Positions 6,434 to 15,351 of a DNA stretch of 25,193 bases are shown here, piece by piece (the first letter of the stretch is position 1; each line of letters begins with the position of its first letter). Origin of the DNA: a virus; IMG/VR virus record IMGVR_UViG_3300044971_001039, positions 1 to 25,193 of that record. One strand, given 5' to 3'. The notes under the pieces were generated by a model, which was given only the letters and a program-made list of their open reading frames with translations, was not told the DNA's origin and did no database searches. The translations under genes and the position numbers were made by a program.

Positions 6434-6724
6434 CTTAATAGGTTAATAGGATAGTTAATAGGATAAAATTTATTATCCTATTAAGATTTTTCTGTGTTGT
6501 TGATAGCTTAAAGTACATATTTATATAATCTTAATAGGTTAATAGGATATATTTATATAATTAATGTTTCTGTATAAATGTATGATGTATTTTTTTGTTG
6601 CTATGTTGTAGAAATAAACTAACTGACTTTTACCTATTAACCTATTAACCTATTAAGGTTAGAACTCAAAATCCTGACTTTCAATACTTTGCGAGTTTAA
6701 CCGGATAAGCTCGTACCTATTAAG
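6434..6724. repeat. TTAATAGG repeat array, ten copies, next to primase gene
   Basis: Ten exact copies of the octamer TTAATAGG. Plus orientation: 6435, 6443, 6455, 6531, 6539. Minus orientation (CCTATTAA): 6477, 6633, 6641, 6649, and 6716, the last inside the 3' end of the primase gene. They form clusters at 6435-6484, 6531-6546 and 6633-6656, starting about 96 and 102 bases apart. A 17-base unit CTTAATAGGTTAATAGG occurs three times (6434, 6530, and inverted 6641-6657). A 13-base AT repeat ATATTTATATAAT flanks the middle cluster at 6517-6529 and 6549-6561. The rest of the 225-base intergenic stretch is AT-rich with no gene seen. Iteron-like spacing beside a primase-helicase suggests an origin or a multi-site operator. 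Confidence 0.9.
6455..6484. repeat. Perfect 12-bp palindrome with 6-base spacer
   Basis: TTAATAGGATAA (6455-6466) and TTATCCTATTAA (6473-6484) are exact reverse complements separated by AATTTA. The arms contain two of the TTAATAGG octamers facing each other. As RNA on the minus strand it could form a hairpin downstream of the primase gene, but no run of U follows, so a DNA role (protein binding or origin cruciform) fits better than an intrinsic terminator. Confidence 0.8.
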
Positions 6725-8824: not shown

Positions 8825-8930
8825 AATTAAAAGAACCCTCCTGAACCAAAGAAGTCGCTACAACGCCCCCATCGAATGACAGGTAAAAGGAACAGGAGGG
8901 AAATTTTAAATATTTTCATGACGTTGTAGC
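8825..8930 (-). promoter_or_regulatory. Structured 5' leader (predicted pseudoknot) of primase-helicase mRNA
   Basis: Read on the minus strand, four pairing strands are interleaved. S1 GCTACAACG (8930-8922) pairs with S1' CGTTGTAGC (8865-8857), 9 perfect bp. S2 CCCTCCTGTTCC (8900-8889) pairs with S2' GGTTCAGGAGGG (8847-8836), 8 bp, two U-U mismatches, then 2 bp. The order S1-S2-S1'-S2' is that of an H-type pseudoknot, or of two mutually exclusive hairpins. Loops are 21, 23 and 9 nt. S2' contains the AGGAGG Shine-Dalgarno, 11 nt ahead of the ATG, so forming S2 would hide the ribosome site. GGGGGCG sits at 8870-8864 against S1'. The pairing is seen; translational control is inferred. Confidence 0.65.
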
Positions 8931-12089: not shown

Positions 12090-12336
12090 TGGATTTTAAG
12101 GTTAAGATTATTGGGTTATCTAATTTTTTGTAAAACCAGTATTTTGTCATCCAATCAGCAACGGTTGACATTGGTAAGTTAAGCAATCTGCCAGCTTCGG
12201 TAGGAGGTATATTATTACCAATGCAATACTCTAATGCTAAACCTATGACTTCTTTTGTATGTCGAGTGCCGTATCGTTTACCCCTGCCAGAGATATTCAA
12301 TGGCAGGGGGGATTGGTTAGAAGGGTAAATCATCAT
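12082..12336 (-). CDS. Small helix-turn-helix protein, 84 aa
   Basis: A compact protein with a resolvase/transposase-like helix-turn-helix: KEVIGLALEYCIGNNIPPTE, then AGRLLNLPMSTVADWMTKYW (residues about 28-67), where the helix before PMSTVADW would be helix 2 and VADWMTKYW the recognition helix. The N-terminal 25 residues are Pro/Gly/Arg-rich. It may be a DNA-binding regulator of this operon or an origin-binding accessory; with no other domain, an enzymatic role is unlikely. It overlaps the SSB-like gene by 20 bases. Its first codons carry a 9-bp inverted repeat (12281-12309), which could be its own target or an mRNA hairpin. Two consecutive ATGs make the exact start uncertain by one residue. 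Confidence 0.72.
   Translation of the reverse strand: MMIYPSNQSPLPLNISGRGKRYGTRHTKEVIGLALEYCIGNNIPPTEAGRLLNLPMSTVADWMTKYWFYKKLDNPIILTLKSNV
12281..12309. repeat. GC-rich 9-bp inverted repeat within HTH gene
   Basis: CCCCTGCCA (12281-12289) and TGGCAGGGG (12301-12309) are exact reverse complements with an 11-base spacer; the centres of the two arms are 20 bp apart. On the minus strand it lies 8 bases after the SSB-like gene stop and within the first 20 codons of the HTH gene. It could be an operator for a dimeric HTH protein or an mRNA hairpin tuning the downstream genes. No U-run follows, so it is not a standard terminator. Confidence 0.7.
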
Positions 12337-12607
12337 CCTTTGCGTTTGGTGTTTGTGCAGCTTGAGGTTTTAGCCCATCAGGCATTTTTGCATTTCCGAA
12401 ATAAACCTTTTCATCAGTCGCATCCTTTTTAGAATTTAGCTGCAATGATAGAATGTTCCCATATTGATCAGGTTGATCGTTCATCCATACTGCAATGTTA
12501 GCGTAGACTTTGCCGTTCTTTTCAGACTTGTTAAATGCGGAGTGCCCAGCTTTGTAAGCATCTCCGAGATCGCTCAAACATATTGAGCCTTGCATTGGTT
12601 TTCCCAT
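12317..12607 (-). CDS. Single-stranded DNA-binding-like protein with acidic DDDLPF tail
   Basis: A 96-residue protein with no clear classical SSB signature but with the hallmark C-terminal tip: KDDDLPF (residues 90-96), matching the acidic (D/E)DDIPF tip through which bacterial SSBs recruit replication and repair proteins. Before it, residues 15-75 hold alternating hydrophobic strands (VYANIAVWMNDQPDQYGNIL, SLQLNSK) compatible with a small OB fold, and residues 76-90 form a Pro/Gln/Ala linker. Position directly after the annealing protein and exonuclease supports an SSB role. It starts in a TAATG overlap with the exonuclease. The tail is seen; the OB fold is inferred. Confidence 0.75.
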   Translation of the reverse strand: MGKPMQGSICLSDLGDAYKAGHSAFNKSEKNGKVYANIAVWMNDQPDQYGNILSLQLNSKKDATDEKVYFGNAKMPDGLKPQAAQTPNAKDDDLPF

Positions 12608-13263
12608 TAGATTGAATTTAGTATTAGGTTTAAATATTGGGTTGATTTGTTAATTTTATCCTGAGCAAGTTCAATGTCTTGCATGACATTTGCACGTTCT
12701 AAACGAATACGTTTGAATTGATACTTGCCCGGATATTCCGGATGATAGGATACGAAATCGAACCACTCGCGCCCGGTTATTATCATGTAACCAATTATCT
12801 GCCAGTAGCACTCTTTATAATCCGCTTTTAGATCAGTTGTAAGCGAGTGAACCAAATGCGCAGTAATTGTATAGGGGCATTTGATTTCAATGCCTCCTGC
12901 CTCATCTACCAAGCCATCAGGCGAACCGCCAAAGTTCTCACCATAGGGAATATATCCTGCTTGCGTTACCTTGGTCTGAAACACCTCCTCATAAATACCA
13001 ATAGCGATTGGTTCGTGCATTACGCCCCAATCTGTGTACTTACTTGTAAAATCATCTTTGGCTGGTTTGCCAGTTAGCTTCTCAGCGATGCACTCCATTA
13101 CATAAGTAATTGCGCCATCTGATAGCTTTCCAGCTTCCTTATCGGCTTTTGCTTTTGGTTCGGTCATTAGTCTGTGCAGTTGACTGCAAGAGAACCGCCC
13201 CATACGTGACTTTAGCCATTCAGGGGTACGTTGGTTTTCGTTTTGTTGTCCGGTGATAATCAT
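12607..13263 (-). CDS. YqaJ-family (lambda exonuclease-like) recombination nuclease
   Basis: A 218-residue 5'-3' exonuclease of the lambda Exo/YqaJ group. Active-site residues: RTPEWLKSRMGRFSCSQLHR at the N-terminus (the typical Arg-containing entry helix), Glu84 in VMHEPIA, Asp116 in GGSPDG, Glu126 and Lys128 in GIEIKCP, and Gln155 in YWQIIGYM. Such enzymes resect double-stranded ends to expose single strands loaded with the partner annealing protein. The gene overlaps the upstream annealing protein by 4 bases (ATGA) and the SSB-like gene by 1, giving a compact annealing protein-exonuclease-SSB unit. Length fits the family. Confidence 0.93.
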   Translation of the reverse strand: MIITGQQNENQRTPEWLKSRMGRFSCSQLHRLMTEPKAKADKEAGKLSDGAITYVMECIAEKLTGKPAKDDFTSKYTDWGVMHEPIAIGIYEEVFQTKVTQAGYIPYGENFGGSPDGLVDEAGGIEIKCPYTITAHLVHSLTTDLKADYKECYWQIIGYMIITGREWFDFVSYHPEYPGKYQFKRIRLERANVMQDIELAQDKINKSTQYLNLILNSI

Positions 13264-13784
13264 GATTGTGAGGCTTTAATGTCATCCATTGGTACATCCT
13301 TAGAGTACATTCCGTTAAACTCGACATCAGAACCGCCATCGGTAAAGATTTTACCCAGCTTAGATGCAGCGTTCTTAAGTGCTAAGCTTTCGGCAGCCGG
13401 GGCGTTCTTTTGAATTGCATCTTGAATAATGTTTTCAATCTGCATTGGTGTAGAACCTGACTTTAACTGTATAGGCCACGCCCCTACTCCATCTACGTTA
13501 CGAGTGCGCCCGGTGATCGGATTGATAACCGATAGCGTTCCAAAAACTAAAACAGAATTAGCCATAATTTGAACATTTTTAATGCTCCAGTCATAATCTT
13601 GAAAAATAGTAATTAGGCTGTTTTTTACCCGATCAATAGGCTGGTAGGTAATACCTTTGTGAACGGATAACCAAGATTGCGGCGGTGTGCTACTCAGCAA
13701 GGTGTTCAAACTATCCATCTTTACGGATAGTCCCAGATCTTTTACTATTGCAGGTAGATTTGGTTTTTTTGTTTCTGTACTCAT
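13260..13784 (-). CDS. Single-strand annealing protein, Rad52-superfamily (Sak/DdrA-like)
   Basis: A 174-residue partner of the exonuclease. The layout fits Rad52-like annealing proteins: an N-terminal GITYQPIDRVKNSLITIFQD helix after the first strand, then a beta sheet (VQIMANSVLVFGTLSVINPI, TGRTRNVDGVGAW), and the helix AESLALKNAASKLGKIF (residues 131-147), which is the conserved helix before the C-terminus in Sak/Erf/Rad52 relatives. RecT is less likely because its typical patterns are absent. It is the first gene of the recombination operon and sits right behind a structured leader, so its expression may be translationally controlled. Family call is by motif and context. Confidence 0.75.
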   Translation of the reverse strand: MSTETKKPNLPAIVKDLGLSVKMDSLNTLLSSTPPQSWLSVHKGITYQPIDRVKNSLITIFQDYDWSIKNVQIMANSVLVFGTLSVINPITGRTRNVDGVGAWPIQLKSGSTPMQIENIIQDAIQKNAPAAESLALKNAASKLGKIFTDGGSDVEFNGMYSKDVPMDDIKASQS

Positions 13785-13874
13785 TATAAATAAAAATGCC
13801 TTATACCGGGTTTGGACTGGAAGATCCGCCCCCGAAATAAGGCTCTTAAGATGTTTTTAATACCGCTTCCAGTC
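13785..13874 (-). promoter_or_regulatory. Structured 5' leader (predicted pseudoknot) of annealing-protein operon
   Basis: On the minus strand: S1 GACTGGAAG (13874-13866) pairs with S1' CTTCCAGTC (13823-13815), 9 perfect bp. S2 GCCTTATTTCGGG (13843-13831) pairs with S2' CCCGGTATAAGGC (13810-13798): 7 bp, one U-U mismatch, then 5 bp including one G-U. The order is again S1-S2-S1'-S2', with loops of 22, 7 and 4 nt. S2' ends 13 nt before the ATG. GGGGGCG lies at 13833-13827, shared with the leader at 8825. The short third loop makes a fully stacked pseudoknot strained, so alternate hairpins are also possible. The stems are seen; function is inferred. Confidence 0.65.
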
Positions 13875-13881
13875 GGTGTAT

Positions 13882-13913
13882 CTAAATTAAAAAATTATTA
13901 TGTTACCTGCAAA
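13882..13913 (-). promoter_or_regulatory. Candidate promoter of recombination operon
   Basis: On the minus strand TTTG (13913-13910), a 20-base spacer, then TAATTTAG (13889-13882), matching TAnnTTTG at seven of eight positions. It overlaps the 3' end of the 43-aa membrane protein gene. Transcription would begin about 13877-13875, right at leader strand S1. The match is seen; use as a promoter is inferred. Confidence 0.6.
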
Positions 13914-14842: not shown

Positions 14843-14995
14843 ATGAGTGAAAAACTAAAATCAATTCCGGTCTACTTGACCGATGAAAAGCGGTCCGCTT
14901 TAAAAACTATTAGTAAAACTAAACGCATTGCCCAGACTCGATTAATCGAGCAGGAGATTGACAAATTGTTAAAAAGAGAGGGATTTAAATTATGA
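14843..14995 (+). CDS. Ribbon-helix-helix (Arc/CopG-like) DNA-binding protein, 50 aa
   Basis: A 50-residue protein, the first gene of the only rightward operon. MSEKLKSIPVYLTDEKRSAL holds the N-terminal strand (SIPVYL) that pairs in the dimer and inserts into the major groove, followed by the first helix (TDEKRSALKTISK) and, after a turn, the second helix (QTRLIEQEIDKLLKRE). This is the usual layout of Arc/MetJ/CopG repressors, which are about this length. It ends in a 4-base ATGA overlap with the membrane protein gene. It faces the leftward early genes across a divergent promoter, so it most likely represses one or both of those promoters. The fold call is good; the target is inferred. Confidence 0.8.
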   Translation: MSEKLKSIPVYLTDEKRSALKTISKTKRIAQTRLIEQEIDKLLKREGFKL

Positions 14996-15351
14996 AAAAA
15001 TTTATCCTAATTACAATAGGATTTGCCCTATTAACCCAAATAACACACGCATCAGAGGTCTTTTACATGATTAGTAAAAAGACAGACTTAGATTACATTA
15101 TATCTTGGATTTTTGCATTTAGTTTAGAATGTTCAATTTTAATATTCACACTAATTGGAAAAAGAAATACCGCAGTATTCTTTGCGCTAATTTCATGGAT
15201 TATTAATTTGCTATATTATTGGTTTGATTTTGGCTTCACTCAGAAATTTGTGGCGATGAATGTAATATCATTAATCATCCCCATAACTATTCTGTTCTAT
15301 TCAGAAACAATAGAAACAGATAAACGTAAAAAGATATTTAAAAGGAAATAA
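14992..15351 (+). CDS. Integral membrane protein, 119 aa
   Basis: A hydrophobic protein with a signal-like first segment (residues 3-20, MKKFILITIGFALLTQITHA) and three further membrane helices (about 35-55, 60-78, 85-103), ending in a basic tail DKRKKIFKRK. No family recognised. Co-translated with the ribbon-helix-helix gene (ATGA). Two membrane proteins behind a regulator in an isolated rightward operon suggest a function separate from virion assembly, such as superinfection exclusion or host membrane change, but nothing in the sequence proves it. Confidence 0.72.
   Translation: MKKFILITIGFALLTQITHASEVFYMISKKTDLDYIISWIFAFSLECSILIFTLIGKRNTAVFFALISWIINLLYYWFDFGFTQKFVAMNVISLIIPITILFYSETIETDKRKKIFKRK

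Follow-up and report, generated by a model that had tools for sequence, protein, structure and literature searches.

The window analysed here, i.e., the whole stretch of 25,193 nucleotides of the viral record IMGVR_UViG_3300044971_001039, carries on its minus strand a unit of three genes with an RNA leader in front of it. The first gene (13260-13784) encodes a 174-amino acid protein and is followed by the genes of a YqaJ-type exonuclease (12607-13263; PF09588, E 4e-14) and of a small SSB-like protein (12317-12607), the latter designated from its position, its DDDLPF tail and a match to phrog_24909 only. The 174-amino acid protein is presumed to be an ssDNA annealing protein, because it precedes the YqaJ and SSB-like genes and because RecT (L127) or ERF (L171) takes its place at related loci. 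It has no Pfam match, a profile search of the PDB gave nothing credible, and its AlphaFold (AF2) model was poor (pLDDT 44) and was left out of fold searching. The order of the three genes is that of the Erf-YqaJ-SSB genes in phage P12024L; a comparison of the operon DNA with phage records found no similarity. Divergent from the minus-strand operons, a pair of small plus-strand ORFs (14843-15351) encodes a 50-amino acid ribbon-helix-helix-like protein and a 119-amino acid membrane protein.

Upstream of the unit, a Bacteroidota-type promoter is predicted on the minus strand (13882-13913). It consists of TTTG (13913-13910), a spacer of 20 nt and the box TAATTTAG (13889-13882), which deviates by one mismatch from TAnnTTTG and is kept in relatives; consensus and spacing (G at -5) follow Baez 2019 (PMC6847099). 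With the published spacing, the predicted +1 is 13877, and the hairpin P1 starts exactly there (ACCG/CGGU, 13877-13874 with 13865-13862, present in the MFE structure). Its loop, ACUGGAAG, holds the 7-nt kissing core CUGGAAG (13872-13866) of the stem S1, whose complete 5' arm, GACTGGAAG, spans 13874-13866 and forms 9 bp with the 3' arm CTTCCAGTC (equal to CUUCCAGUC; 13823-13815). An A-rich linker L1, AUUAAAAACAUCUUAAGA (13844-13861), leads to the 5' arm of the stem S2, which is identical with the hairpin stem P2 (GCCTTATTTCGGG, equal to GCCUUAUUUCGGG; 13843-13831). Within P2, the short hairpin P3 (GGA/UCC, 13827-13825 with 13816-13814) presents the S1 3' arm in its loop, and the four nucleotides CAAA (13814-13811) separate this arm from the S2 3' arm (CCCGGTATAAGGC, equal to CCCGGUAUAAGGC; 13810-13798). 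Twelve of the 13 positions of S2 are paired, the exception being a single U.U mismatch on the minus strand. From P2 to the AUG there follows a U-rich tract resembling the tail of a terminator, AUUUUUAUUUAUA (13785-13797, with the U-run at 13797-13788), and the ATG of the 174-amino acid gene lies at 13784, just 3' of the leader (13785-13874, minus strand).

When the window leader was shuffled 3000 times with its dinucleotides preserved, crossing stems as strong arose in 6 cases, and its nested MFE of -27.4 compares with -18.7 +/- 3.1 in shuffles (z -2.84). In the original prediction, arms, loops and coordinates are all correct for the minus strand; P1, P3, the promoter, the U-run and the size of the class did not figure in it. 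The nested MFE fold comprises the hairpins ACCG-ACUGGAAG-CGGU and GCCUUAU...AUAAGGC, the latter tipped by GGAU-CUUCCA-GUCC. Since the loops of both hairpins are complementary, S1 is better read as a loop-loop kiss of P1 with P3, and the whole fold as an intramolecular kissing complex in which P3 sits at the tip of P2. An H-type pseudoknot with a strained loop of 4 nt was dropped after P1 and P3 had been recognised, because the strain vanishes once S1 becomes a loop-loop contact.

Among viral contigs, 42 relatives of the 174-amino acid protein were found; the closer ones have the leader, and the changes in it are compensatory. Such changes had been named by the original prediction as a check, and both S1 and S2 are indeed retained in homologues by way of double changes. 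The S1 core, CUGGAAG/CUUCCAG in the window, reads CUGCUAC/GUAGCAG in L020, whereas L030 and L127 have CUGGAAC/GUUCCAG; the S1 arms are entirely different in L062, L048, and L014. P1 occurs in the subfamily in the compensatory forms CCCG/CGGG and ACAG/CUGU, and P3 in the window and its relatives as GGA/UCC, GGG/CCC, GGUG/CGCC, GGCG/CGCC, and GAG/CUC. In an alignment of 11 sequences, 98.5% of the cells are paired and five pairs are changed on both sides, a result which none of 500 shuffles equalled. All seven pairs of the S1 core are retained in the 11 aligned sequences, with double changes at three of them; in a hand-slotted table, the kissing arms comprise seven distinct sequence pairs, with 128 of 128 pairs kept. 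The base of P2 is almost invariant in the 11-sequence set and shows little covariation by itself. With complementary apical loops on two hairpins and covariation in all helices, the leader has the features of an intramolecular kissing-loop RNA, and its anatomy and covariation are regarded as established.

The leader is independent of the protein that is encoded behind it. It precedes not only the 174-amino acid protein, a RecT (L127; PF03837, E 8e-43; followed by YqaJ) and an ERF protein (L171; PF04404, E 8e-26) but also a helicase (L124) and a 155-amino acid gene of unknown kind (L126, L140). Conversely, distant homologues of the 174-amino acid protein (56-67% identity) are without the leader and have coding sequence upstream instead. 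The small upstream genes (83 and 61 amino acids in the window) are common to most such loci, and the downstream recombination module is swapped; the leader can persist while entire recombination modules change behind it. In L126 and L140, an unrelated pair of ORFs (155 and 222 amino acids, the latter phrog_6706) stands in place of the annealing-exonuclease-SSB unit and perhaps constitutes a third type of module for recombination or SSB.

A second leader of this kind lies on the minus strand before the primase ORF (8824), at 8836-8930, with S1 formed by 8930-8920 and 8867-8857 and S2 by 8900-8893 and 8843-8836. Its crossing energy of -37.9 was not reached by any of 60 shuffles, so that the prediction of a first interleaved leader at this site is borne out. 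L050 is a relative with compensatory changes; in distant primase relatives, the leaders are unrelated in sequence and share the crossing geometry. Seven primase leaders (L072, L073, L079, L081, L083, L087, L105) constitute a sub-type with a common GUAAAAAC ... GUUUAC helix (P3) and an additional hairpin P4 located 5' of S2b, several of them including a short uORF whose UAA stop is located where S2a ends. In the window, the interval from the primase stop to the following ORF carries, at 6434-6658, short copies of TTAATAGG / CCTATTAA, both direct and inverted, in arrays of 16-25 nt, which could be origin iterons or a terminator region.

Both leaders belong to a large class of self-kissing 5' leader RNAs in phages of Bacteroidota, for which no earlier description seems to exist. 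Among 2592 ORF upstream regions from all fetched loci, stem energies of -30 or lower were found in 39, compared with 6 in shuffles. When the Bacteroidota -7 box was used as a filter (TAnnTTTG 60-130 nt upstream of the ATG) and helicase loci were added, 61 of 405 upstream regions carried crossing stems of -24 or lower, with 0.7 expected; membership is defined by our own energy scan on mechanically taken ORF starts, the IMG/VR contigs are fragments, and some low-scoring entries will be false. At the helicase loci, 13 TTG/TAnnTTTG promoters have a leader of 90-129 nt, and in 9 cases it is of this class. The association with this promoter and with replication genes is likewise established: the genes concerned encode DEAD and DnaB helicases, BT4734-type primases, annealing proteins, DUF6291, Lin1244, and KilA-N proteins, and several homing endonucleases (HNH/NUMOD4, GIY-YIG). 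Many of the leader-bearing genes are free-standing endonucleases of the last-mentioned kind (HNH/NUMOD4/AP2 or GIY-YIG; L241, L228, L203, L227, L131, L148, L095, L114), and such enzymes could help the leader to spread. Cultured members are the Flavobacterium phages hattifnatt9-1, snusmum6-1, mumin9-1, and FCV-1, while the phages phi46:1, P12024L, phi18:1, phi38:1 (first 50 kb), and 6H contain no convincing member. The 4227 models of Rfam 15 gave no match at the gathering cut-off in the window or in 13 member loci, and nothing credible at E<=5 in the 500 bases around the window leader. In the open-access literature searched, no description of a pseudoknot or kissing leader of Bacteroidota phages was found.

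From this class, 52 leaders non-redundant in sequence were compared. Median values are 8 bp for S1, 10 bp for S2, and 23, 8, and 8.5 nt for L1, L2, and L3, respectively; the spacer to the ATG has a median of 15.5 nt (10-90% range, 11-21) and the distance from box to ATG one of 104.5 nt. P1 and P3 had played no part in the detection of the leaders and provide an independent test of the fold. The flanks of S1a pair with each other at -5 kcal/mol or lower in 28 of the 52 leaders, as against 7.2 expected from swapped flanks, and those of S1b in 26 as against 7.4; the permutation p of 0.0002 in either case is only indicative, because the 52 leaders are not independent phylogenetically. Across the class, pairing begins at +2 (median) relative to the predicted +1. 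The linker L1 contains the motif AAAACAT in 10 of the 52 leaders (1.0 expected). An internal loop AGUA / GAA between P2 and P3, similar to the bulged-G (loop E) motif, is seen in L064, L253, L259, L226, L223, L060, L254, and L241; with 8 leaders versus 4.6 expected, the enrichment is too weak for a class motif. Within a contig, off-target pairing between leaders was only weak, with few cases to compare.

P2 combines a stable hairpin with an immediate U-tract, as is typical of intrinsic terminators. The mean energy of P2 (including P3) is -18.0 kcal/mol versus -8.1 kcal/mol in shuffles, the T fraction in the 8 nt 3' of P2 is 0.64 versus 0.295 at control starts (p=1e-17), and at least four T within 7 nt after P2 are found in 41 of the 52 leaders versus 16% of control starts. 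The T-run follows the end of P2 and not the ATG, its T fraction being 0.69 at spacers of 7-13 nt and 0.68 at spacers of 17-24 nt. GC is not enriched at the base of the P2 stem. P2 of the window leader is passed over by a simple terminator scan, since the scan allows loops of no more than 8 nt.

Because P2 and the U-tract look like an intrinsic terminator placed right before the gene, the preferred reading, held at somewhat less than an even chance, is that of an attenuator-type leader limiting expression. Transcription would start at the TTTG/TAnnTTTG-type promoter, and the first nucleotides of the transcript would fold into P1. About 20 nt after P1, hairpin P2, tipped by P3, would form, and the loops of P1 and P3 would pair over 6-10 bp into one compact kissing complex. 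P2 together with the U-tract directly after it and before the start codon would then terminate transcription, the kissing contact fixing or tuning the strength, and no more than a fixed proportion of the polymerases would proceed into the replication or recombination gene. The covariation of the kiss and of both supporting hairpins and the excess of crossing stems at the promoter (61 versus 0.7) are in favour of this proposal, as is the precedent of the corrinoid riboswitch, in which a kissing loop stabilises the expression-platform stem and favours the terminator (PMC10653944). Against it stand the lack of a conserved antiterminator, the oddity of a constitutive terminator ahead of essential genes, the long P2 loop (about 24 nt when P3 and the kissing contact are disregarded), the failure of the simple scan to list P2, the stem base without GC enrichment, and a good U-run missing in some relatives (L030, L014). 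The main rival, possible and seriously to be considered though doubtful, is a leader for mRNA protection and translation: P1 would seal the 5' end, the kissing complex would fold the rest away, and the open U/A-rich 10-20 nt before the AUG would receive ribosomes not relying on a Shine-Dalgarno sequence, to give a stable and well-translated mRNA. Pairing that begins close to the predicted +1, the lack of an alternative fold, and an unpaired, A-rich start region with A at -3 in 60% agree with it, and so do the independence of the leader from the downstream gene and the preference of initiation in F. johnsoniae for open start regions (PMC6847099). Taken alone, however, it leaves unexplained the U-run that is anchored on the P2 end and abuts the AUG at short spacers, and also the need for anything more than a plain 5' hairpin.

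Further readings are much less probable. The original prediction was right in placing a conserved interleaved-stem leader at the head of the annealing-YqaJ-SSB unit; its view of S1 and S2 as alternatives is not supported. Their arms do not overlap and covary jointly, and upstream complementarity to S2a or S2b in the 52 leaders was not above that in swapped controls (p 0.88-0.98); there being no conserved antiterminator, any regulation would need a trans-acting factor or folding kinetics. Although the crossing topology could fold stepwise and AAAACAT recurs in L1, a bistable switch or a metabolite riboswitch is on this account improbable; arms and loops vary freely, the structure rather than a highly conserved ligand-pocket-like sequence is kept across the class, and no Rfam family matches the members examined. 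An autogenous operator of the T4 gene 32 type, at which a phage ssDNA-binding or annealing protein would bind the pseudoknot and repress the operon when ssDNA is scarce, would suit a pseudoknot leader ahead of a recombination unit and has its precedent in T4 (PMC535899); one shared trans-acting SSB could in principle act on many leaders. It is nevertheless unlikely to a similar, marginally smaller degree: annealing proteins of unrelated families, helicases, primases, and homing endonucleases all follow the same leader, which is not tied to a binding-protein gene, S1 and S2 are replaced freely, and the fold ends about 15 nt from the AUG, where T4 has an unstructured operator with UUAAA elements that is longer than 40 nt. 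That the annealing protein, SSB, or primase controls its own leader, as implied by the original prediction, is unlikely for a specific binder because unrelated genes replace the annealing gene behind the same leader. Least probable is an element acting as DNA, whether replication origin, recombination joint, or homing target, and folding by chance. Replication genes are nearby, and subfamily A shows near identity where unrelated recombination modules are exchanged, so that it may act as a recombination joint; yet the leaders are strand-fixed between promoter and ATG ahead of many genes, pairing is kept while the sequence changes, and the U-tract is on the RNA sense strand. A leader-peptide attenuator was rejected: an ATG occurs 5' of S2a in 23 of the 52 leaders (22.8 expected) and is absent from the 13.8-kb window leader, and the peptide is not conserved. 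Between the window and L050, the changes in the uORF of the primase leader, read by eye, are mostly non-synonymous.

Among known systems, the repZ leader of IncI/IncB plasmids contains a hairpin loop that pairs with a downstream leader sequence just 5' of the replication gene; the leader peptide RepY is required, and an antisense RNA antagonises. The likeness lies in a leader pseudoknot at a replication gene, the difference in the phage leader being without a conserved leader peptide. In their way of working, the corrinoid expression platform and the pT181 attenuator would be most similar to the proposed attenuator. The corrinoid (cobalamin) riboswitch has an L5-L13 kissing loop in its expression platform, and there, as would be the case here, the kiss of an upstream hairpin with a terminator- or start-adjacent hairpin in a 5' leader decides on the stems (PMC10653944); in contrast, the phage leader of about 100 nt in total has neither aptamer nor ligand core nor antiterminator and precedes many unrelated genes. 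In pT181, a 5' hairpin, a kissing-competent loop, and an intrinsic terminator are likewise found in the 5' UTR of the replication gene repC, but the kiss is made in trans with an antisense RNA and a competing antiterminator exists, whereas the phage leader has its partner in cis and no conserved antiterminator (PMC4878617). The T4/RB69 gene 32 operator, a phage pseudoknot leading a recombination/replication gene, is similar in context only: a pseudoknot of about 28 nt is followed by more than 40 nt of UUAAA repeats that are bound cooperatively by gp32 (PMC535899), as opposed to a pair of kissing hairpins with a terminator-like stem that ends about 15 nt from the AUG and is found at many genes. 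STAXI (RF01728) is also a pseudoknot RNA near SSB, integrase, and topoisomerase genes, but is built from pseudoknots repeated in tandem, has UUCG tetraloops, and occurs in Enterobacteriales (PMC2864571); the phage leader has no Rfam match.

The leaders of the class would probably govern the yield of each gene behind them, and the window leader may plausibly set the dose of the whole recombination unit. A wider proposal is rather unlikely: a terminator at the gene door, held or released by loop-loop contact, would be a general layer of expression control in Bacteroidota phages, perhaps with one phage factor co-ordinating replication, recombination, and homing genes, and a kissing sequence of its own for each leader would avoid cross-pairing within the genome. 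Bacteroidota are a phylum with a promoter type of their own; to our knowledge, the Shine-Dalgarno sequence is not used by them, and we know of little on gene control in their phages. Here, a defined, strongly covarying RNA architecture is found ahead of replication, recombination, and homing-endonuclease genes, and, owing to its occurrence in cultured Flavobacterium phages, it is directly testable. It would provide an element for control in cis and could perhaps serve as a part in the engineering of Bacteroidota.
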